Shown: one piece after another, positions 1-21,662 of the stretch | Position numbering within the stretch: position 1 is the stretch's first letter | Layout: every line of letters starts with the position of its first letter | DNA from: a virus | Length of the DNA stretch: 21,662 nt | IMG/VR virus record: IMGVR_UViG_3300047678_000082 | Location: 1-21,662 of that record | Direction: 5' to 3' (one strand) | Translations under genes and position numbers: made by a program | The notes under the pieces: generated by a model | Database searches by the model: none | Told to the model about the DNA's origin: nothing | Seen by the model: only the letters and a program-made list of their open reading frames with translations

Positions 1-2428
1 CGGTGACGAGCTGGTCAGAGAACGTCCGCAGCGCCCGGACCACTCCCGAGGCCATGTCCTTGCCGATCTTCACGTCCAGGCCACCAGAGGCGATGGAATC
101 GGACACGCCAGACGTGCCGTAGCTGCTAATCGACTTCGGGGTGGATTTGAACAGGCCGCCGAGCAGGCCACCGACGATGCCACCAATAAGTGAACCTATG
201 GGGCCGCCTATGGCCGCGCCGATTGCACCGCCAACCGCGCCGACCTGCCCGCTGCCGGTAATCTGGCCCACGCCGTAGCCCAGCATCGCACCACCGGCAA
301 CACCGCCGACCGTACTGTTGCCAATGGGCTTGCTGAGGAATCCGGTCTGGACCCCAGAGCCGGAATAAATGTCCTTCATGTAGTCTTTGCCGCCAAGCGC
401 TGCACCTGCCGAACTTGATCCGCCGCCGAACAGGAACTTGCCGATTGCGCTGGCACCGATGCCACCGAATGCCGCTTGTGTGCCAGCCGCGCCAGTCGTC
501 CCCGGCATTTTCATGCCGAACATGGCCTCGAACAGCGGCGCGACGATGGACTGCTGGGTAGACAGCGCGATCATGTCGGCGATCGCACGGGCCCAGGTGG
601 ATTTCAGGCTGTTGGCGAACGACTTGAACGACAGCTTGCCCTTGTCGAAGATGTCGAACAGGAAGTCTGACCAAGCGGCGTTCACGCCCTGGGCGGCGTT
701 GGTCCAGATGGCCTCGACTTCATCGGCGGCCTTTTTGGCGGCGTCGGCGATCTTCTTGGCATCCAAGGCAGCATTCATCCGGGCGATTTGGTCCGACGTC
801 GCGCCCTCTTTCTCCAGTTTCAGCAGGGCGATAGTGCGTTCGCGCTCGTCATTGGACATGCCCATCAGTCGGGTTTCCAACTCGATATCGTCAATCACAC
901 CCTTGATGTTGGCTTGGCGCTCAGCATACGCCTTGGCCTCATCCGCGCCCGCTTCCTGCGCATCCTTGGCAACCTGCCGATAGAAATCCTCGCTCGCCGC
1001 GCCGACCTTTTCGTAAACGGTCAACCAGCCCTCGGCGACCTTCTCCTGCCAATCGTGCTGCGCGTTGAGTTGCGCCTTGATTTCGGCATCCGTGGGGATG
1101 ACGCCGTAGCGGTTTTTGCGACCGGGGGCGGCGCTGCGGTCCTGATTGTAGGTGGACATGTAATCAGGCGAGGCGCCGGACGGCAGGCCGCTCAGGTCAA
1201 TCTTGGGCATGTTGCCGGGCGTAGTCCCGTAGAAGCCCGGCGTAGGGTCAATCACGCGAATGTCGCGCTTGCCGTAGGTGCCGTTTTTGGCCACCCAATC
1301 CTGAATTCCAGCCAATTGGTTCAGCACCGACTGGACTGGATTGAGCGCGCTCAGCGCGGCTTCCTTGACTGTATCGAAAAAGCCCTTCACCTGCGGCGTG
1401 GACTTGTCGTTGATGTCGCCGGCGAACTTGGCGATGTCGGACAGCGCAGCGCCGACCGCAATCAGCGGCTGCATGTTCTTGTCGACCTGTTCGAACGCGC
1501 CGGTCAGCGAGCCGCCCAGCGCCTCTATGGCCTTGCCCGCACTGTTCGCCGCTGCGGTGAACCCTTCGGACTTTCCCGCCGCCTCGATGAATTTGTTGCT
1601 CAGTTCGGTCAGGGATTGGCCGATCTGCGTCTGTGCCAACCCGGCCTTGGTCGCCAGCTCCTCGGACCCGGCGATGGCCGCCTCGAAGAACGCTTTGTTG
1701 CTTACCTCGCCGTCGCGGACCATCTGGGTCAGCTTTGCAACCGACCCTCCGGCGCCGTCCAGATGGTTGGCGACGGACTGCAGGAGCGGGCGCATACCGT
1801 CGATCAGGCTGTTGTATTCCTGCGCCTGGATCTTCGCGCCGCCCATCGCTTGCGACAACTGGAGCAGCGCACCGGATGCGGCCGATGCTTCCGTGCCGTT
1901 GATCTTGAGCGCGTTGCCGACCGCTTCGGTGAACGTGAAAAGCTGATCGCTCGACGCGCCCAATTCCTTCTGCGCAGCGGACAGGCGGCCATACAGCGTG
2001 GCGTTCGCCTCCACCGAGGTCTTGGTTCGGTTGGATATCTCGAACAGCCGGTCGGTCGCCGACGCCAGCGCATCGGATTCGAAGCCTGCGACGCGAAGCT
2101 GGTTCTGCAGGCCCTTGAAGCTGTCAGCGGCCAGCACGGTACGGCGCCCGAGTTCCAGCAGCGCGCCGGCCGAAGCGTATCGAGCGAGCGCGGCAAGGCC
2201 GACATTCAGAGCGTTCGTGGACGTGGACGCGACGTTGGCATGAGCGGCATAGTCTCGGGCCGCACCGCCTAGTCTACTGACGCCATCTCCAGCCTGCGAA
2301 GCCGCGCCGCCGGTGCGCTTGAAGCTTTCGGCTGTCTTGGCGTCGGCTGACTGCACTTCGGCATAGTCGCGCTTCACCTGGTCCGCGCCGACGCTATCCC
2401 AGCGGATCGTATTGCGTGTTTCAGCCAC
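1..2428 (-). CDS. Tape measure protein, N-terminal part (runs off left edge)
   Basis: The frame is open for 809 codons from a GTG at 2428 to the window edge, so the 3' end is missing. The tape measure protein sets tail length and lies in the tail lumen. Residues about 60-260 look like a phage tape-measure N-terminal domain. Residues about 575-640 resemble the lambda gpH C-terminal domain (contains AWSDFLFDIFDKGKLSFKSF). Residues about 665-760 are Gly/Ala-rich and hydrophobic, as expected for a membrane-active tape measure segment. An AGGAAA ribosome site precedes the GTG, and the start overlaps the stop of the upstream DUF6441 gene by 8 bases. The rest of the protein is very probably the fragment at the right edge (20697-21662). 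Identity is based on domain resemblance and on position after the chaperone. Confidence 0.9.
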   Translation of the reverse strand, partial: MAETRNTIRWDSVGADQVKRDYAEVQSADAKTAESFKRTGGAASQAGDGVSRLGGAARDYAAHANVASTSTNALNVGLAALARYASAGALLELGRRTVLAADSFKGLQNQLRVAGFESDALASATDRLFEISNRTKTSVEANATLYGRLSAAQKELGASSDQLFTFTEAVGNALKINGTEASAASGALLQLSQAMGGAKIQAQEYNSLIDGMRPLLQSVANHLDGAGGSVAKLTQMVRDGEVSNKAFFEAAIAGSEELATKAGLAQTQIGQSLTELSNKFIEAAGKSEGFTAAANSAGKAIEALGGSLTGAFEQVDKNMQPLIAVGAALSDIAKFAGDINDKSTPQVKGFFDTVKEAALSALNPVQSVLNQLAGIQDWVAKNGTYGKRDIRVIDPTPGFYGTTPGNMPKIDLSGLPSGASPDYMSTYNQDRSAAPGRKNRYGVIPTDAEIKAQLNAQHDWQEKVAEGWLTVYEKVGAASEDFYRQVAKDAQEAGADEAKAYAERQANIKGVIDDIELETRLMGMSNDERERTIALLKLEKEGATSDQIARMNAALDAKKIADAAKKAADEVEAIWTNAAQGVNAAWSDFLFDIFDKGKLSFKSFANSLKSTWARAIADMIALSTQQSIVAPLFEAMFGMKMPGTTGAAGTQAAFGGIGASAIGKFLFGGGSSSAGAALGGKDYMKDIYSGSGVQTGFLSKPIGNSTVGGVAGGAMLGYGVGQITGSGQVGAVGGAIGAAIGGPIGSLIGGIVGGLLGGLFKSTPKSISSYGTSGVSDSIASGGLDVKIGKDMASGVVRALRTFSDQLVT

Positions 2429-3107
2429 GGCGGTTTCCTGAGATGCGTTGATATTCAGCGGCGATAAGGTCGGGAACCTGGGCGCGCCATTTGGCTTCCA
2501 GCGGAGCAATGGAGAACCGCTTCCGCAGCGTGACGACGGGGACGAGAATAAAGACGACGATGGTGGCGACTTTGCCCGCCGCCGCAGCCTTTGCCGATGC
2601 TCGCGCGAAGCCGCCCCGCTTGCCGCCTCTGGCGCGTACATTGTCCGCCACCAGCAGCGACGGCTTGCCACGCCGGTAGACGAACCGCAGTTTTCCATAC
2701 CGCGCCTCGGCCGCGGCCAGCCGCTTGTCGCGGTCCCGGCCCAAGCCCACCTTCGGCGCGTTCTCAGTCGGGATCAGCAGGAAGAAGCCGCTTCCAGACC
2801 GGATGGTTGATCCGTTGGTGAACGCATACATCGCGTCCTGAGTGTGCTGGCTGCCCTTCACAAAGATTTCAGCAGACGCGCTCAGCGAACCAACACCCTG
2901 CCGAGGATAGGCTGCCGACGTCCACGAGCGTGACAGACGGCCAAGGCCACTGGACGAAGCCGCGTTCTCAAGGTCTTTCTCAAGGCCGCGCGCCGCCGTC
3001 CTCAGCCCTTCAGCCTGGGCCTTCTTCCGATATTCCAGATCGGCCTTGAGGTCCTTCGCCACCGTGCTGATGAACTTGGCGACGGCGTGCATTGAATCCC
3101 CTATCAT
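2421..3107 (-). CDS. DUF6441-family phage tail-region protein
   Basis: This 228-residue protein resembles the DUF6441 family, which is found beside the tape measure gene in alphaproteobacterial siphophages; its function is not established. The N-terminal third is charged and helical (about residues 10-55). The middle has a Lys/Arg-rich stretch with an FVYRRGKPSLLV motif, and a hydrophobic stretch (VATIVVFILVPVV) lies near residue 185. The C-terminus ends in a basic tail. Two starts are possible. ATG 3107 follows a GGAG at short spacing, and a second ATG five codons later follows GGGGA; the second may be the better start. The gene lies between the tail assembly chaperone and the tape measure and is translationally coupled to the latter. 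A minor tail or completion role is inferred from position. Confidence 0.72.
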   Translation of the reverse strand: MIGDSMHAVAKFISTVAKDLKADLEYRKKAQAEGLRTAARGLEKDLENAASSSGLGRLSRSWTSAAYPRQGVGSLSASAEIFVKGSQHTQDAMYAFTNGSTIRSGSGFFLLIPTENAPKVGLGRDRDKRLAAAEARYGKLRFVYRRGKPSLLVADNVRARGGKRGGFARASAKAAAAGKVATIVVFILVPVVTLRKRFSIAPLEAKWRAQVPDLIAAEYQRISGNRRG

Positions 3108-3138: not shown

Positions 3139-3486
3139 ATGACCGACAGTGTTGTGAAGATCGCCGTAGTTATGGTGGGGCTAATTGTAGTGGCCACCTT
3201 AGCAGCGGGTTTTTCCGCTTCAGGATCAAACGAGCGGGGCGCCCTGAGCGAGAGTGAGGTTGTCGCGCGATGCCAAAAAGCGATTGAGGCAGAACAAAGC
3301 CCGTCTGCTACCGTCACCTACGATAGGTTCGGCGAAAAGTCCGCAAGCAAAGTCCCAGATGGGTGGGATGTCTTCATTGACTTTACTGTCAACAACGTCA
3401 CAGGCCAAACCTTGCGCATGAAAGGGCTGTGCTTTGTTGAATCGTATGGCGCTCGCGTATCAGCTTCAACTTTTGAGCGGCCTTAA
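3139..3486 (+). CDS. Small membrane-anchored or exported protein, moron-like
   Basis: This 115-residue protein is encoded on the strand opposite the surrounding tail operon. I chose ATG 3139 because a strong GGGAGG lies 8 bases upstream (3125-3130); in-frame Met codons further up overlap the DUF6441 start. Residues 7-25 form one hydrophobic segment (uncleaved anchor or signal peptide). After it comes a polar domain with two cysteines (45 and 98) and a WDVFIDFTVNNVTG motif, which suggests a small exported beta-rich domain. I recognise no family. The gene is visibly less GC-rich than its neighbours. It sits alone between divergent DUF6441 and the convergent chaperone frameshift ORF, whose stop is 9 bases away. 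Together this fits a moron, a cargo gene expressed independently of the late operon. A weak promoter would have to overlap the DUF6441 start. Confidence 0.6.
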   Translation: MTDSVVKIAVVMVGLIVVATLAAGFSASGSNERGALSESEVVARCQKAIEAEQSPSATVTYDRFGEKSASKVPDGWDVFIDFTVNNVTGQTLRMKGLCFVESYGARVSASTFERP

Positions 3487-3495
3487 ATATCGCAC

Positions 3496-3792
3496 CTAAC
3501 CCTCCCGCGCCGACTTCTTCCAGTCGTGATACTCCGCCATCACCTGATCCAGCACATTGAATGCTGACATGACGAATGCGGCCTGATCGTTCACGCCGCC
3601 TTCGTCCGGCATTCGCATGTAGCCACCTTCCGGCGACCTGCACAGGCTCCACAGAGTGATGATGTTCCAGCACCAGGCCGGAATGTCATCGGTCGGATTG
3701 GTCTCTACTTGCTCGCCGAGGATGTCCCAGGGGCCGTCTTCGTCCGGGCCGAACGCTTCGGCTTGCTGGCGGATGAAGAAGGCCCATCGGAG
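3496..3792 (-). CDS. Frameshift extension of tail assembly chaperone (gpT-like domain)
   Basis: This is a 98-codon frame in -1 relative to the chaperone gene. It runs from the slippery site to TAG at 3496. It has no usable start in its first 58 codons, so it is expected to be made only as a fusion of 223 zero-frame residues plus 98 residues (321 in total). The encoded sequence looks real: it begins LRWAFFIRQQAEAFG, has a Trp/Cys-rich middle (PAWCWNIITLWSLC), and ends in a charged helix. By analogy with lambda gpGT, this minor fusion would bind tape measure and recruit tube subunits. The frame and heptamer are seen in the sequence; the role is inferred from the conserved siphophage arrangement. 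Confidence 0.8.
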   Translation of the reverse strand, partial: LRWAFFIRQQAEAFGPDEDGPWDILGEQVETNPTDDIPAWCWNIITLWSLCRSPEGGYMRMPDEGGVNDQAAFVMSAFNVLDQVMAEYHDWKKSAREG

Positions 3793-4460
3793 TTTTTTAG
3801 GTCGTCACCGATGGTGTTCATGAGGCCGACTGCGTGCCAGCCGATCTCAAGCGCATGGCCGCTTGGCAAGGCGCTCAGGGTCTCATCCAGCACCAGCCCT
3901 GCGGTGCGGCTGATCTCGATTTCCGAATTCTCGGCGCCGACAAGAAACATGGCCGCTGCGGTGAGTGGCGCCATCTGCATCCAGAAAAGCTGCTCGCCGA
4001 ACTTGCGGCCGTAGGGCGGGAACATGCGCCGCATCTGGCCTTCAAGATCGTCCATCTGGTCCTTCAGATCGGTGATCTTTTCGAAGATCGACAGCAGTTC
4101 GGCGCCGATAGCCTTGGCTTCATCGCTGCCGTCTTCCAGGCCTTCCGACCGGGCGTTGGCGTCGATGATGTCATCCCGGTACTCGGCGAGCCTGGGCTCG
4201 TAGTTGTCGAGGAATTCCAGCAGTTCGGCGCGCTGGTCCTCGGCGACCACCTTGTTGATGCCGCGCCGCATGGACGCATAGAGCGTGTCCCCCGAGACAT
4301 GCTTCGCGCCCTGGTCCGACAGGAGCCGGTGCCATTCAGCGCGGGTGTGGAGCGTCGGAGGCTGGATCAGATAGACAACGGCGCCGGGATTCGGCTTTCC
4401 CTTGTCGTTGCAGAGCGCGCGCGGCGTGAACCGCACCGTCTGCTTGGCAGAGGTGATCAT
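3705..4460 (-). CDS. Tail assembly chaperone, zero-frame product (gpG-like)
   Basis: This 251-residue protein lies between the tail tube and tape measure genes, the standard place for the chaperone that coats the tape measure before tube polymerisation. The body is acidic and helical, with a long charged helix at about residues 85-145, and the last 30 residues are a disordered Ser/Lys/Ala-rich tail. Codons 221-223 read CTA AAA AAC and contain an in-phase A_AAA_AAC slippery heptamer. A -1 slip there replaces the disordered tail with a conserved-looking 98-residue extension (3496-3792). Translation in the zero frame gives this short form. ATG 4460 has an AGGAAG ribosome site that is partly paired in a small hairpin (4468-4486). 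Confidence 0.82.
   Translation of the reverse strand: MITSAKQTVRFTPRALCNDKGKPNPGAVVYLIQPPTLHTRAEWHRLLSDQGAKHVSGDTLYASMRRGINKVVAEDQRAELLEFLDNYEPRLAEYRDDIIDANARSEGLEDGSDEAKAIGAELLSIFEKITDLKDQMDDLEGQMRRMFPPYGRKFGEQLFWMQMAPLTAAAMFLVGAENSEIEISRTAGLVLDETLSALPSGHALEIGWHAVGLMNTIGDDLKNSDGPSSSASKPKRSARTKTAPGTSSASK
3792..3798 (-). promoter_or_regulatory. Programmed -1 ribosomal frameshift site A_AAA_AAC
   Basis: On the minus strand the sequence is CT A AAA AAC TCC, with the heptamer in the X_XXY_YYZ phase of the chaperone frame (codons 221-223). This is one of the most efficient bacterial slippery sequences. The -1 frame opens directly into a 98-codon ORF that lacks its own start. No stimulatory pseudoknot was folded. 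Confidence 0.85.
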
Positions 4461-4566: not shown

Positions 4567-5742
4567 TCAGTAGAAGCAGATCGAAAAAGCGTCGTTGTCG
4601 CCGGTGCAGCGGAAGTTGACGGCCTCGGTCGAGAAGCCGTCGCGGTCGCCGCCCTGGTTGTTCTGGGTCGCGTAGCAATTGGCCGCCGTCACCGCGACAC
4701 GGGCGCCGGCCGCAGTGCCCGCGCGGGCGTGGACGATGCGCGCCGTGTTGTTGCGCATGTCGGCGAGGATGTCGCGGGTGGCCAGAAGGGTTTCCAGCGG
4801 GTCGAACGAGCCGGAGGCATTGCGCAGCGTGATCTGCGCCGGATCGTAACCTTCGACACCTTCCGGGTTGTCCGGCCTCACCACCGTGTTGCCGGCATCG
4901 AAGGTCAGCGTCTTGCACTGCGCCAGGATACGGTTCCAGCGCATGCGGCTGACGGCGGATGTGGTGCCGCGCCAGACCAGCTTGGTCGTGTCATTGAACG
5001 TGCCGGAGACGTTGGCCGTGTCGGTGGCCTGGACCCAGACGCCCATGAACGAGAACGAGAACTTGATGCCCTCGCCGCTCACCCACTGCATCGTGAACGT
5101 GCCACGGCAGCCAATGCCCATCAGCTTCTTGCCGTCGCGGTACAGCCACAGCGTGGCGCTGGTCAGCGAGCTGGACGCGAACCGGTACAGCGCGTTGATC
5201 GGGATGACATAGTTCGTGGTCGCCACCAGCGCGCCGCTCATGATGTCGGTCAGCGTGGCCAGCTTGGCGGCGGAATAGGCGGCGATGAAGCTGTCGCCCG
5301 ACACCGTGCCGCTGAACGTGATCGGCATGCCGGTGTATAGGTTGGCCGTGCCGGTGGCCGACGCGCCCAAGACCGCCGTGGTGGTCGAGCCACCGGCGGC
5401 AAGGGCTTCGGGCGCCGCCGGGATCGACGTGGTGGTCAGCGTCTCGGTCATGCCGCACGCCTTGAGCAGCGGCGACATGTCGGGCGCGGTCGAGCCCAGC
5501 GCGCGGGCCTTCACCCACACGTCGAAGGTCACCGCCGTCTTGACGCCGCCAATCAGCGGGGGCGACACGTCAAGAGCACCGGATACCTCGTTGGACTGGA
5601 TGACGTTCGGCGTCTCGGTCCAGTTGACGTTCTCGACCTTGATGGCATTGGCGGCGGCGGTCGGCGTCGGATCGACACCTTCGCTGGATTCCACCTTGGC
5701 CAGCAGCGTCTGGGGGCGGGTGCGGATGAACGTGGCGACCAT
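4567..5742 (-). CDS. Major tail tube protein
   Basis: This 391-residue protein lies immediately before the chaperone with a programmed frameshift, the standard place of the tail tube gene. Tube subunits form the hexameric rings of the tail lumen. The sequence starts MVATFIRTRPQTLLAKVESS, a start typical of phage tube proteins of this type, and is rich in Thr/Ser/Ala/Val beta strands throughout. The middle (about 105-170) is a low-complexity Ala/Gly/Thr/Ser stretch that could be an inserted loop or decoration. The C-terminus contains an asparagine/glycine/aspartate-rich segment and ends SICFY. Its start overlaps the stop of the upstream small gene (TAATG). Function is assigned from position and composition, without an alignment. 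Confidence 0.8.
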   Translation of the reverse strand: MVATFIRTRPQTLLAKVESSEGVDPTPTAAANAIKVENVNWTETPNVIQSNEVSGALDVSPPLIGGVKTAVTFDVWVKARALGSTAPDMSPLLKACGMTETLTTTSIPAAPEALAAGGSTTTAVLGASATGTANLYTGMPITFSGTVSGDSFIAAYSAAKLATLTDIMSGALVATTNYVIPINALYRFASSSLTSATLWLYRDGKKLMGIGCRGTFTMQWVSGEGIKFSFSFMGVWVQATDTANVSGTFNDTTKLVWRGTTSAVSRMRWNRILAQCKTLTFDAGNTVVRPDNPEGVEGYDPAQITLRNASGSFDPLETLLATRDILADMRNNTARIVHARAGTAAGARVAVTAANCYATQNNQGGDRDGFSTEAVNFRCTGDNDAFSICFY

Positions 5743-5923: not shown

Positions 5924-6406
5924 TCAGCCTCCGATGTCTTGTGAGAAGGGGTTGGAACTGGAGGTCCAGTAATCGACCTCGAAAACGACGGTGAACGAGC
6001 CGCTGTTGGTCGCCGCGTCCATGGCGATTTCAGGCGTCATCGACAGGAACCGCATATCGACGGCGATACCGCCCAGGGTGCGCGGTTCGGTCAGCACGGC
6101 TTGCACGGTGCGGGCGTAAAGGTCATTCACGGCGGCCTCGAAGTCGGCGCCTGCTGCATCCACGTCGCCTTCCTCGGCGGCCTGCTGGACGTAGCCGTAA
6201 ACCTCGATGGTCATGGTCAGGTCTTGCTGGCCATAGGACCGCTCGTCGCCGCGTTCATTGCCCGAATTGATGATCAGGCAGGGGAATGCGGAAACGGGCG
6301 CATCACGGCCACGCTCGACGGTGACCGCATCGCCGTGTTCGTCCTCGATGCTGGCCAGCAGCGCGGCAAAGGCGCGGACCACCTGTTCGCGGATAGCGAT
6401 GGTCAT
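5924..6406 (-). CDS. Probable tail terminator / tail completion protein
   Basis: This 160-residue protein begins with a helix (REQVVRAFAALLASIED) and alternates beta strands and helices afterwards. It has a FPCLIINSGNE motif and a tandem EVYGYVQ / FEVDYWT strand pattern like gpU or tail-terminator folds, which cap the tube at the head-proximal end. The order joining protein, this gene, tube matches the position of tail terminators in siphophages. It shares an ATGA overlap with the gene upstream. The family is inferred from size, position and predicted fold. Confidence 0.6.
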   Translation of the reverse strand: MTIAIREQVVRAFAALLASIEDEHGDAVTVERGRDAPVSAFPCLIINSGNERGDERSYGQQDLTMTIEVYGYVQQAAEEGDVDAAGADFEAAVNDLYARTVQAVLTEPRTLGGIAVDMRFLSMTPEIAMDAATNSGSFTVVFEVDYWTSSSNPFSQDIGG

Positions 6407-6714
6407 CGGGTGGTGCCCAGCATGAAGCGGAAGACGAGGTTGTCGTTCACCTTCTGGACGGACTTGACGTAATAGGATGCCGTGCCGAACAGCACGGTGT
6501 CTTTCTCGGCAGGCGTGACGCTGAACTGCGCGGCGTCGGCCTCATAGATCAGTTCCGGGACCACCATCGAACCGGCGATCTGCATTTCGCTGTCACCGGC
6601 CACCACAGGCACCATCTTGACGGCAAACGACGACCCGACGCGGGGCCGATAGCGCGCGGTTTCGCCCAGAGGCCCGGCGAAGATGGCCGCCAGCGGTGCT
6701 GAAAAGATGCTCAT
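6403..6714 (-). CDS. Probable head-tail joining protein
   Basis: This 103-residue, largely beta-stranded protein lies in the head-tail connector cluster. I chose ATG 6714 (MSIFSAPLAAIFAGPLG) because it gives ATGA overlaps with both neighbours; an upstream extension of 12 residues lies inside the preceding gene. Small head-tail joining proteins of this size that start with a short hydrophobic segment are common in alphaproteobacterial siphophages. They form a ring between the portal/adaptor and the tail terminator. The assignment rests on size, position and the strand-rich C-terminus (KDTVLFGTASYYVKSV). Confidence 0.55.
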   Translation of the reverse strand: MSIFSAPLAAIFAGPLGETARYRPRVGSSFAVKMVPVVAGDSEMQIAGSMVVPELIYEADAAQFSVTPAEKDTVLFGTASYYVKSVQKVNDNLVFRFMLGTTR

Positions 6715-10380: not shown

Positions 10381-11751
10381 TTACGCGCCGGCGTTCTTGT
10401 ACATACCGCGCCAGTCCAGCGCCTTGGCGGCGAAGTCGTGGCGGGCCTTGATCTCGATGCCGTCCACCTCGAATCCCACGCGGGTCTCGGTGTAGACACC
10501 GTCCTGGCCGTCCAGATAGGCATACTCGATGGTGTCGATCTGGTCCGGGGAGGCGAAGACGTACCACTGGTTACCGGTCAGCCGGGCCTCGGTGATGGGC
10601 TCGAGACCGGAGTAGACATTCTGGGTTGCCTGCGAGACCGGCACGTAGTTCGCGCTGGTCATCTGCTTGCGCACCATGTCGGTCGCCCAGCCGCCCACCA
10701 GATACCGGCCCTGCAGGTTCAGGTAGGTGGTGTCATCACTGTCGCGACCTGTCTGCGAGCCGATGGCGGTCATGGCTGCGCCAATGGTCGTCAGGTCAGG
10801 GGCCGCACCGGAACCGGACTGGTTCGCGTGATTGGTCGCGTCGAACAGCGTGTACCCGTCATTCAGCGCGGCGTTGGCAGTGATGATGCCCCACACCGTG
10901 TCCGATTCCAGGTTGGCGGCCGACTGGCCCATCAGCTGGGGGATGCGGGTGAAGGCGTTCAGATCGTCGTTGATGATCGCCTGGCGGGTGATCGGCACGA
11001 TGCGGCCATAGGTGGACAGGGAATAGACTTCCTTGCCCTCTCCGATATAACCGTAGGTGAATTCACCTTCCTCGGTGACCTTGCGCATCTTCGGGCCGCT
11101 GCCCAGCTGGGTGCGCTGCGCCTGCTTGAAGTCAGGCAACGTGGTCCGGCGGGCAATCGGCAGGAAAGTGCGCGGGGCGGTCGCATAGCCCATGCGCAGC
11201 GTCTTGTTGGCGACGTTGGCGAGGATATACGGGAAGTCGGAGGTGGACAGCATGCCGCCGGAGCGAACATCCATGCCCAGCACCAGGCCGGCGCGGGCCA
11301 TCTTGTCAGTGCCCTTGGTGTTGACGCCGCGGCGCTCCAGGAGGTCGGTGCCGACTTCCAGCAGCGAACGGCCCATGAACTGGCGGGCGCCGTCTTCCAG
11401 CGGATTCTTGGCCGGATCATAGCGGTGCATGATGGCGTTTTCGGCCAGTGCGCGGGTCGTGTCGACTTCGTCGCGGGTGATCTGGACATGGTTTTCGGTG
11501 CGCACCTGTTCGTCCTTTGCGGCAAGGTGATCGAAGATCGCGGCGCGGGCCTGCTCGATGGTCAGGCCCTTGTCTTCCACGCTCTCAAACAGAGCATCGC
11601 GGTAGACGGTATCGAGGCCAACCGCGCGAACGGCGGCGGTCACTTCCTTGAAGCTTGCCTTGGCCGGCTTCTCGGTGCGGGTTTCAACCGCGACCTGGGC
11701 GGGCTCGGTGCGGACTTCGGTGGCGGGCGGGTTGCCCGTGGCTTCGGTCAT
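10381..11751 (-). CDS. Major capsid protein (protease-fused HK97-type)
   Basis: This 456-residue product is counted from the internal ATG 11751. The first 100 residues are polar and helical (a scaffold-like delta region with ATEVRTEPAQVAVETRTEKP). They are followed by a capsid body with landmark pieces GFFTYGYIGEGKE-like (here EFTYGYIGEGKEVYSLSTY), GRIVPITRQAIINDD, and a C-terminal EIKARHDFAAKALDWRGMYK. These match the capsid domain of protease/capsid fusion proteins from alphaproteobacterial prophages. The frame continues upstream into a protease remnant, so full-length protein was originally a fusion. An AGGAG at 11758-11762, 6 bases from this ATG, suggests that capsid protein can also be made alone. 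Confidence 0.88.
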   Translation of the reverse strand: MTEATGNPPATEVRTEPAQVAVETRTEKPAKASFKEVTAAVRAVGLDTVYRDALFESVEDKGLTIEQARAAIFDHLAAKDEQVRTENHVQITRDEVDTTRALAENAIMHRYDPAKNPLEDGARQFMGRSLLEVGTDLLERRGVNTKGTDKMARAGLVLGMDVRSGGMLSTSDFPYILANVANKTLRMGYATAPRTFLPIARRTTLPDFKQAQRTQLGSGPKMRKVTEEGEFTYGYIGEGKEVYSLSTYGRIVPITRQAIINDDLNAFTRIPQLMGQSAANLESDTVWGIITANAALNDGYTLFDATNHANQSGSGAAPDLTTIGAAMTAIGSQTGRDSDDTTYLNLQGRYLVGGWATDMVRKQMTSANYVPVSQATQNVYSGLEPITEARLTGNQWYVFASPDQIDTIEYAYLDGQDGVYTETRVGFEVDGIEIKARHDFAAKALDWRGMYKNAGA

Positions 11752-11952
11752 CGGATTCTCCTCTGATGGACCAGGCTCGGGCAGTGCCCGGATGGTGCAG
11801 GGAAAAGTCTTGGTGTTTTCGCTGCGGACCCCTGCGCCCGCATCGGCCCCTACCGGGACAAAACTCAGTTCCATGGGCTCCCAATCGGTGGCCCGCCAGA
11901 TGTCGGGACCGTCGTCGGATTCCGTCTTCTCGTAGGTGTGGACGCGGTACCC
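11752..11952 (-). pseudogene. Prohead protease, C-terminal remnant (5' end lost)
   Basis: This frame is continuous with the capsid gene. It encodes GYRVHTYEKTESDDGPDIW, then RATDWEPMELSFVPVGADAG, a hallmark of the end of HK97-type prohead proteases. That enzyme cleaves scaffold and capsid N-termini inside the prohead. The catalytic His and Ser lie in the part that should precede GYRV, and that part is absent. Upstream, the sequence abruptly becomes antisense to a methyltransferase fragment. The reading frame stays open to 12114 by chance, but that extra piece is not protease. The cut coincides with the genome junction at about 11945-11962. Confidence 0.75.
11758..11762 (-). promoter_or_regulatory. 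Internal ribosome binding site for the capsid domain
   Basis: AGGAG lies on the minus strand with a 6-base spacer before ATG 11751, inside the protease/capsid frame. It would permit capsid synthesis independent of the protease, and it decides the start chosen for the capsid entry. Confidence 0.55.
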
Positions 11953-11962
11953 ACAGCATTCC
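11945..11962. other. Head-to-head junction of two 5'-truncated genes
   Basis: To the left the minus strand codes for the end of a prohead protease. To the right the plus strand codes for the end of a DNA methyltransferase. Both coding homologies stop here and both 5' ends are missing. The missing interval would normally hold protease active site, portal, terminase, replication and repressor genes. This is a deletion end-joint or an assembly misjoin. Confidence 0.7.
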
Positions 11963-12409
11963 GACGCCGACAGCCTCGGATCACATCGAGCGGCAGGAAA
12001 CCTACGGCCAACTGAACTATGCGACGAACAAGGCGGTGACGCTGGATCGGTTTGCGAAGATGTGGCCGACACCAACAGTAAGCGGAAATCACAACCGGAA
12101 GGGCGCGTCGGCAAACTCAGGCGACGGACTCGCGACCGCAGTCAAGATGTGGCGCACACCAGCAGCATCGGATGCGAACAAGTGGTCGAACCAGTCTTTG
12201 GAAGAGCGTTTGGCCAAGGGGCAGCAGATCAGATTGAACACGCAAGTCTCACCCAAGGGTGGGGCTGGTGGCGCACTGAACCCGACGTGGGTCGAGTGGC
12301 TCATGGGGTTCCCGCTCGGGTGGACCGACTTAAAGGGCTAGGCAACGCCGTAGTCCCCCAAATCCCCGAGATGATCGGGCGTGCCATTCTTGCAGCGCGG
12401 GGTGAGTGA
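11955..12409 (+). pseudogene. DNA cytosine methyltransferase, C-terminal remnant with frameshift
   Basis: The plus frame from about 11955 reads SIPTPTASDHIERQ, then WPTPTVSGNHNRKGASA, GDGLATAVKMW and NPTWVEWLMGFPLGW. This is the repeating WPTPTASD pattern and conserved C-terminus of phage cytosine-5 methyltransferases. The catalytic PC motif and SAM-binding motifs lie in the lost 5' part. The frame stops at TAG 12339-12341. The characteristic last motif, LGNAVVPQIPEMIGRAIL, continues in the -1 frame to 12409. The change of frame falls exactly on A_AAG_GGC, just before the stop. It is either a frameshift mutation in a decaying gene or a slippage site. Enzymatic activity is not expected from this copy. 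Confidence 0.75.
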
Positions 12410-16761: not shown

Positions 16762-16953
16762 TCAGAAGGCCTTCGCGAGACCCGCCTGTTTTAGAACTTC
16801 GTTTGCCGTGTGCCGGGACTTGATGTCCGTATCGACCGTGACGTGCCTGTTGCTGTGTGGGCTGTACCAGATGTCATGGTCGCCCTTGCCGCGCCTCTCG
16901 AAAGTGCAGCCGCCGTCCTTCAGCAATTTCCGGACTTCGCGGCCATAGCTCAT
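16762..16953 (-). CDS. hicA: HicA-family mRNA interferase toxin
   Basis: This 63-residue protein is typical of HicA size. It shows YGREVRKLLKDGGCTFERRG, then KGDHDIWYSP with the catalytic-position His26, and a closing helix (SRHTANEVLKQAGL). HicA toxins are dsRBD-like ribonucleases that cleave translated mRNAs; activity depends on this His. Its ATG abuts the hicB stop (TGAATG), and it is transcribed downstream of the antitoxin. A strong terminator follows. The gene could stabilise the element or act as an abortive or lysogeny-related module. Confidence 0.88.
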   Translation of the reverse strand: MSYGREVRKLLKDGGCTFERRGKGDHDIWYSPHSNRHVTVDTDIKSRHTANEVLKQAGLAKAF

Positions 16954-17202
16954 TCACTGGCTCGTGCGCATATCCAATTCGAGGCGTTTATCCGCCATAA
17001 GATGGACCGGCAACGGGCATTGACCCGTTCCCTCACCATCGTTAAGACCAACCAATTCTGGGATGATAACCTCCAGCTTCTTGATCAGCTTTTCAATGGT
17101 TTCGGCCTCCGTGGCCAACCCCTCGATATCGTCGCTCCGCGCCCACCAGACTTTTGCTTCTTCGTCCCACGTCGCAAAAACTGTGATGCCACCCGCACTC
17201 AT
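16954..17202 (-). CDS. hicB: HicB-like antitoxin (DUF1902 type)
   Basis: This 82-residue protein has the DUF1902 form of the HicB fold: strand FATWDEEAKVWWARSDDIEG, helix ATEAETIEKLIKKLEVIIPE, then a polar tail (VHLMADKRLELDMRTSQ). It would bind and inhibit HicA. Unlike longer HicB proteins, no separate DNA-binding domain is evident, so autorepression may need the HicA/HicB complex. GGAG precedes ATG 17202 with 6-base spacing. The pair lies between tail-tip and lysis genes. Confidence 0.85.
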   Translation of the reverse strand: MSAGGITVFATWDEEAKVWWARSDDIEGLATEAETIEKLIKKLEVIIPELVGLNDGEGTGQCPLPVHLMADKRLELDMRTSQ

Positions 17203-20696: not shown

Positions 20697-21662
20697 CTAA
20701 CGCAGTCCCGCGACGGCCTGTTGAATGGCGCCGAAGTCGATGTTGCCGACAGTGACCACACCATTCTGCGTCGGCGCCGCGCTGCCACGCTGTGCCGCGC
20801 CGGCCGATGCCGACAGCAGCGAGATCACGGTGTCCAGCTTGGCATTGGTGTCGGCGCGCTGGTTCGCGGCGCGCTCGGCATAGGCCGCCTGCACACGGGT
20901 GTTATCGTTCACCGCCGCCGCCGCATTGCTGTTGGCAGCCGCAAGCGGATTGGCCGATCCTGTCACCTGCGAGAGTGTCGCCACCACGTTCTGATAGCTG
21001 GACTGGAAGCCGCCCGCCGATCCGTAGACCGCCTGCGATGCCGACAGGAAGTCCTGCGAGGCACCCTGTAGCGCGGCGATGGCATCGGTGTCCCCGGCAA
21101 GCGCCCGGCCACGAATATCGTTGTAGCGGGTCTGGGCAAGGTTGAGCCGGTTGGTCGGCGACAGCGGAGACGCGGAACCGCCCGTGATGCTGAACAAGTA
21201 ATCCTTCAGGCCGCCGAGCGACTGTTCCATGGCAGCGTTCTGTTGCTGGTTGTACTGCGCGACCAGGTCCAGCCGCTTCTGCGCATAGACGGCTTCCAGC
21301 TTGGTCTTGTCGGCCTCGTACTTGTCGGCAAGGATCAGCTGCTGCTGGTACTCGAATTCCAGCCGGGCCTGTGCCTCGGCTAGCGGGTTGGACAGGCCGG
21401 TGAACTGGAAGTCGAGCTCGCGCTTGAAGTCGTGGCTGGCCACCACGTCCTGCATGGCCTGCTCCACCGATCCCGCAGCCCGCATCAGCTTCTTGTCGGC
21501 GTCGGTCAGGCCCTTCACCACGCCTGAATTGATGGCAGCCTCGATGGCGGCGGCAATAGCTTCCTCAGCGCTGTCGAACTTCACCGCGCCGTACTTGCCC
21601 TTGCCGGCGGATTTGAGGTCGGACTGCTGCGACTGATAGAAGAACTTCTTCCCGCGCTGGCC
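20697..21662 (-). CDS. Tape measure protein, C-terminal part (enters from right edge)
   Basis: The frame is open to the right edge. 322 codons including the stop are visible, without an initiator at the edge; the first internal ATG is 21584. The edge codons read GQRGKKFFYQSQQSDLKSAG, then KGKYGAVKFDSAEEAIAAAI, a typical C-terminal tape measure segment. A helical domain (about residues 100-190 of the fragment) and a disordered Ala/Asn-rich end follow. It precedes the tail tip gene, as expected. It is very probably the missing end of the gene at 1-2428. A direct join of the two window ends changes frame, so some bases (2 modulo 3) are missing between them. Confidence 0.88.
   Translation of the reverse strand, partial: GQRGKKFFYQSQQSDLKSAGKGKYGAVKFDSAEEAIAAAIEAAINSGVVKGLTDADKKLMRAAGSVEQAMQDVVASHDFKRELDFQFTGLSNPLAEAQARLEFEYQQQLILADKYEADKTKLEAVYAQKRLDLVAQYNQQQNAAMEQSLGGLKDYLFSITGGSASPLSPTNRLNLAQTRYNDIRGRALAGDTDAIAALQGASQDFLSASQAVYGSAGGFQSSYQNVVATLSQVTGSANPLAAANSNAAAAVNDNTRVQAAYAERAANQRADTNAKLDTVISLLSASAGAAQRGSAAPTQNGVVTVGNIDFGAIQQAVAGLR

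Follow-up and report, generated by a model that had tools for sequence, protein, structure and literature searches.

The G/GT genes of phage lambda, which encode a pair of tail assembly chaperones made by -1 frameshifting, carry the slippery heptamer G_GGA_AAG and stand in the order tail protein V, G, T and tape measure protein H. Many copies of G per GT are placed on the tape measure protein in lambda, the T domain binds the tail shaft subunit, and the G/GT arrangement is described as widely conserved despite low sequence similarity (PMC5009743). The haloarchaeal HCTV-1 and HCTV-2 use G_GGA_AAC and A_AAA_AAC as g-t slip sites (PMC5009743); they have archaeal hosts, and the likeness to the locus studied here lies in those published slip sites. 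A_AAA_AAC is listed among the prokaryotic consensus heptamers, and 6-7% frameshifting was measured for HK97-like chaperone genes (PMC3711429). A study of Rhodobacter phages treats the frameshift as usual in tail assembly chaperone genes (PMC8601537), and the frequency with which such genes stay unjoined is reported in PMC10885494. In RcKemmy, RcOceanus and other Rhodobacter phages, the depositors joined a -1 chaperone gene that contains an in-phase GGGAAAC and lies between the tail tube and tape measure genes, on the far side of the tail tube gene.

The DNA analyzed here (the window; 21,662 nt) is the IMG/VR virus record IMGVR_UViG_3300047678_000082. The features relevant to a putative chaperone gene are as follows.

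5742..4567, minus strand: 391-aa gene of tail family phrog_290, in the position of the major tail protein (PHROGs E 2.7e-11)
4460..3705, minus strand: 0-frame ORF of 251 codons, candidate short (G-like) form of a tail assembly chaperone (ORF scan; homologues aligned up to the slip)
3798..3792, minus strand: slippery heptamer A_AAA_AAC, in phase at codons 221-223, CTA AAA AAC (in-phase heptamer scan)
3792..3496, minus strand: putative T-like -1 frame extension, 98 codons after the slip plus stop (dN/dS, alignment)
3791..3705, minus strand: overlap read in both frames, a 28-codon 0-frame tail plus stop (dN/dS: 0 frame 1.2, -1 frame 0.077)
3785..3731, minus strand: predicted RNA hairpin, 6 nt after the heptamer (folding; z -2.64 against dinucleotide shuffles, 0.01 codon-preserving)
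3107..2421, minus strand: DUF6441 gene (PF20039, E 2.5e-23; also phrog_6367)
2428..2, minus strand: N-terminal part of the tape measure gene (tape measure PHROGs, best E 1.1e-45; aligned to the intact 1069-aa gene of relative L003)
20700-21662, minus strand: rest of the tape measure gene (alignment to the L003 protein)

The first-pass annotation had placed a 251-codon ORF, a heptamer at codons 221-223, a 98-codon extension and a 321-residue fusion at this locus, and these coordinates and counts were correct. The -1 frame is open from 3804, the last base of its stop is 3496, and a -1 slip at the heptamer gives a fusion of 321 aa. Besides A_AAA_AAC, the 251-codon ORF contains a single in-phase X_XXY_YYZ sequence, GGGAAAG at codon 20. 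The extension had been called Trp/Cys-rich; this is apt for Trp, with 6 among 98 residues, but not for Cys, with 2. In alignments of 35 rows (the window, its close relative L002, and 33 of the 54 loci described below, after near-duplicates and odd N-termini were dropped), W24 of the extension is invariant (35/35) and W50 is Trp in 31 of 35.

A tail terminator gene (phrog_4204, E 1.2e-9) precedes the phrog_290 tail gene, which is followed by the putative chaperone gene, the DUF6441 gene and the tape measure gene, with 388 nt between the chaperone and DUF6441 genes. In L003 the gene also lies between the tail-protein and tape measure genes. Gene order in divergent relatives was inspected at four loci: L048 has phrog_290 upstream and phrog_6367 and tape measure families downstream, L081 has the same two downstream, L053 has a tape measure gene downstream and L079 has phrog_6367 downstream, and the upstream gene is unmatched in the last three. 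The gpG/gpGT-like arrangement claimed in the first-pass annotation is supported, with a gene between tail-protein and tape measure genes and a DUF6441 gene intervening. Judged by its neighbors, the window gene occupies the place of lambda G/GT, with DUF6441 inserted. It shares with lambda the gene order and, in L079, the G_GGA_AAG heptamer, but it differs in the length of the short form (251 codons here and 140 in lambda), in its A_AAA_AAC site and in the DUF6441 gene before the tape measure gene. The Rhodobacter phages differ again, because their extension carries DUF7697 and their DUF6441-like gene, annotated as a minor tail protein, lies upstream of the tail tube gene.

On the plus strand of the window, between the extension and DUF6441, lies a 115-aa ORF (3139-3486) with a hydrophobic N-terminal stretch; it has no Pfam match, is absent in L003, and has a 34%-identical relative in L038 (4582-4412) in the same place and the same opposite orientation. 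It looks like an insert of the lysogenic-conversion type. Close relatives carry two opposite-strand ORFs between the tail-protein gene and the chaperone (L003 5259-5824, minus strand) that are not there in the window and, by eye, look like a HigB/HigA-type toxin-antitoxin pair.

The window gene very probably encodes a pair of tail assembly chaperones like lambda G/GT, the longer one arising through programmed -1 frameshifting. The sequence shows how the locus is arranged, that this layout is conserved, that selection acts on the -1 frame and in which order the genes lie; that ribosomes slip here, how often they do so and what each protein does are inferred. Most ribosomes would keep the 0 frame and produce a short, helical, G-like protein, and a minority would slip back one base with the P- and A-site tRNAs (Lys, Asn) on A_AAA_AAC, appending the 98-residue, T-like C-terminal domain. 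By analogy with lambda, the tape measure protein may be coated by the short form, with the scarcer long form bringing the tail tube protein to it. One point against this reading is that E. coli is reported to slip far less on A_AAA_AAC than on A_AAA_AAG (PMC5009743). Others are the DUF6441 gene and 388 nt that intervene, the lack of a match to characterized chaperones by sequence, profile or fold, and a predicted window hairpin whose signal disappears once codons are preserved.

Neither half of the protein (35 members each) had a tail-chaperone model in Pfam or PHROGs, and NCBIfam gave no chaperone model for either half of the window's own proteins. Hhalign found no match to the single lambda G and T sequences, and neither half matched the Rhodobacter phage chaperones by profile. 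This is thus a sequence family without a model in the libraries searched, in a classical arrangement. Pfam matches of the short forms to VMAP-M0 (5 of 35 members, best E 5.2e-5) were weak and were taken as composition-driven. The predicted structure of the short form to residue 223 consists mainly of long helices (mean pLDDT 92.7), and that of the extension has a mean pLDDT of 83.9. At E <= 0.001, Foldseek returned no match for the short form (PDB, BFVD) or the extension (PDB). The best VIA-align 2 scores were middling (short form, Z 8.1, rmsd 4.4, 94 aligned; extension, Z 2.7, rmsd 3.0, 46 aligned), and no phage tail chaperone was among the fold matches listed by either program. Matches to 14-3-3, IpaB and long-helix folds were weak (Foldseek E of at least 0.14, TM ~0.3) and were set aside. 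The best BFVD match, Mx8 p82 (E 0.16), was also dropped; it adjoins p81, which is annotated as similar to phi105 p8. The absence of a sequence or fold match to any characterized chaperone, like the position of DUF6441 between the gene and the tape measure gene, would fit a genuine frameshift in a protein other than a tail assembly chaperone. We regard this as highly improbable, given that a tail-protein neighbor, a tape measure gene downstream and a -1 frameshift together are the chaperone signature.

Relatives were sought with both halves. The short form found no match in 50,697 phage records, and the extension found one, in Synechococcus phage MinM1 (ON981384; tblastn E 1e-2, 33% identity). 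MinM1 has a homologous extension and A_AAA_AAC; DUF6441 comes next, and then a long gene where a tape measure gene would stand. Its junction reads GCA AAA AAC TGA, so that a 0-frame stop directly follows the heptamer, and the extension is reached by reading on in the -1 frame. Its 0-frame part spans the ends of the record, and the comparison rests on the extension and the junction. Literature searches on DUF6441, and on MinM1 with Synechococcus, found no paper. Two other cyanophages, Sc-Yong805-1 (L014) and Nsp-JY21 (L015), have two adjacent annotated genes (6015-6712 in each) at the place of the joined chaperone gene of the Rhodobacter phages. In Sc-Yong805-1, the first ORF contains an in-phase AAAAAAA and the other frame is 46% identical to the Rhodobacter extension, so the frameshift seems to have been missed there too.

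Profiles of the extension recovered 18, later 28, loci in viral contigs and 29 in bacterial genome records, whose titles were mostly Roseomonas, Acetobacteraceae and Rhodospirillales, with some Methylocystis and others. Three of these 57 loci (L035-L037) are copies of L034 and were left out. Heptamer conservation, the check proposed in the first-pass annotation, was borne out: an in-phase slippery heptamer was present at the same junction in all 54 loci examined, which are not independent of each other (L080 and L089, for example, match in size and range), and A_AAA_AAC was present in MinM1. Further heptamers with an open 0 frame occur elsewhere in the -1 ORF of L052, L062, L080, L089 and L090, where the one at the junction was counted. 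One search pattern started with KKL, which the heptamer itself partly encodes, so loci with a slip-independent pattern were counted apart; all 35 of these have the heptamer, 6 of them in a form other than A_AAA_AAC, and the remaining 19, which hold the KKL pattern only, all have A_AAA_AAC. The extensions of the 35 aligned rows fall into 12 clusters at 70% identity. Within the 6543 upstream codons of these 35 genes, in-phase heptamers occur 3 times (one of A6N/G3A3N type), vs. 35 of 35 at the junction, and Lys codons outside the slip are AAA in only 9 of 87. The heptamer is commoner at the junction than expected by chance. The distance from the slip to the 0-frame stop is 17 codons in 33 loci, 0 in 12, 1 in 5, 28 in 2, 27 in 1 and 38 in 1. 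In L024-L033 and L016, the search upstream of DUF6441 gave no heptamer with a suitable geometry; several of them carry heptamers of that kind 2.5-3 kb past DUF6441, consistent with a Rhodobacter-type gene order.

These alignments bear on whether the extension is a separate protein, started alone from an unusual codon or by re-initiation. The MinM1 depositors annotated it in this way, as a stand-alone hypothetical protein begun at an internal codon, the -1 frame of some relatives has an ATG, GTG or TTG ahead of the slip, and the window has ATC codons at positions 9 and 26 of that frame. The -1 frame of the window was nevertheless without an early start of its own, much as the first reading of the sequence had it, with no ATG, GTG or TTG ahead of codon 61 counted from the slip. 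Moreover, conserved residues begin right at the slip (invariant K, L3 and A6), and free starts leave the in-phase retention of the heptamer unexplained. Two independently started proteins are accordingly a very unlikely source of this pattern.

The makeup of the slip site speaks to whether the two products could arise from mRNAs of two lengths, made by RNA polymerase slipping on the A run. The heptamers in the 54 loci are A_AAA_AAC (48), G_GGA_AAA (4), G_GGA_AAC (1) and G_GGA_AAG (1; L079), with no A_AAA_AAG at any junction; the 48:6 ratio is biased towards A_AAA_AAC because the 19 KKL-only loci are all of this type. Most relatives have 6 or 7 consecutive A at the site. Poly-A sites can serve either process, and the runs cited for transcription exceed 7 (PMC3711429). 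Six A form a short run, and the six loci with G_GGA_AAN have no long run and yet keep the tandem-slip pattern. Transcriptional slippage is very unlikely.

Protein-coding constraint on each side of the frame change was assessed with close relatives. Four IMG/VR contigs (L002-L005) are mutually identical over 1020 nt, and their protein pair is 85-86% identical to that of the window. Compared with L002, the 0-frame part of the window has 22/17/68 changes at codon positions 1/2/3, and the -1 frame has 8/2/27. In the close-relative comparison, dN/dS ahead of the slip is 0.168. Past the 0-frame stop, the value is 0.172 for the -1 frame, as against 1.4 and 5.7 for the remaining two, which marks the extension as a selected protein. 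The 28-codon 0-frame tail after the slip has a dN/dS of 1.2 and thus no sign of being a selected protein, whereas the same overlap gives 0.077 in the -1 frame. The -1 frame is therefore under purifying selection, and the 0-frame reading of the overlap is unconstrained. That the overlap has diverged so little (4 changes in 84 nt) was considered as a special feature and rejected, as another 84-nt stretch of the gene is equally low. An indel in the A run of a single contig could have split a true single-frame gene, but the relatives refute a sequencing error. Error or gene decay has next to no chance of being correct: the frame changes in this way at an in-phase heptamer in every one of the 54 separately assembled loci, both frames are under purifying selection on either side of it, the -1 frame is conserved in every relative examined (MinM1 included), and no homologue among the 54 has both parts in one frame. 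Neither finding named at the outset as fatal to the frameshift was encountered.

The predicted hairpin 6 nt past the heptamer of the window gave z -2.6 to -2.9 against dinucleotide shuffles, but codon-preserving resampling gave z 0.01 (255/500) in the window and 0.27 in L002, so the window hairpin is no stabler than synonymous-codon resampling gives. With the shuffle signal gone once codons were preserved, no RNA stimulator is claimed for the window. The codon-preserving test was run on 21 of the 36 sequences of the dinucleotide-shuffle test; z was below -2 in 6 of the 21 (L038, L049, L081, L085, L087 and L090) and above +1 in L039, L048, L052, L053, L056 and L078. Some distant relatives, the L081 type foremost, thus retain a signal. 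An upstream Shine-Dalgarno-like stretch was not uniform among the sequences and is likewise not claimed.

Other features of the record concern its ends and its remaining genes. Residues 1-740 of the L003 tape measure protein match the left end of the window in pieces and residues 752-1069 match the right end, with 11 codons missing. Because both ends hold one tape measure gene, the record comes from a circular or circularly permuted molecule and is cut inside that gene; no direct repeat was detected at its termini. At 10381-12409, a capsid ORF (Phage_capsid_4) meets opposite-strand ORFs, and no terminase or portal gene was recognized by eye in the ORF list of the window. Possibly this 21.7-kb record is a circle that underwent a deletion or was joined wrongly. 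At 16762-17202 on the minus strand, a DUF1902 gene (PF08972, E 7.9e-19) is followed by a HicA-type toxin gene (PF07927, E 3e-10), and the two are probably a HicA/HicB-like pair.

The -1 frameshift chaperone arrangement itself is known and classical; less ordinary are the family without a library model and its use mostly of A_AAA_AAC. It is possible, though the odds are against it, that these loci represent an uncatalogued chaperone family, found in alphaproteobacterial phages and one Synechococcus phage, whose hosts slip well on the A_AAA_AAC on which E. coli slips poorly, with a switch of heptamer to G_GGA_AAN within the family and a 0-frame tail of anything between 38 codons and none, the latter putting a stop right after the slip in some members. 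Were this the case, the family would be a natural series for asking what sets the rates of bacterial -1 frameshifting. The chaperone reading itself gives a function to a protein family un-modelled in Pfam and PHROGs, and the comparison shows that the deposited MinM1 genome mis-starts its extension and yields a deep alignment of one frameshift site, with varied heptamers, stop distances and hosts far from E. coli.
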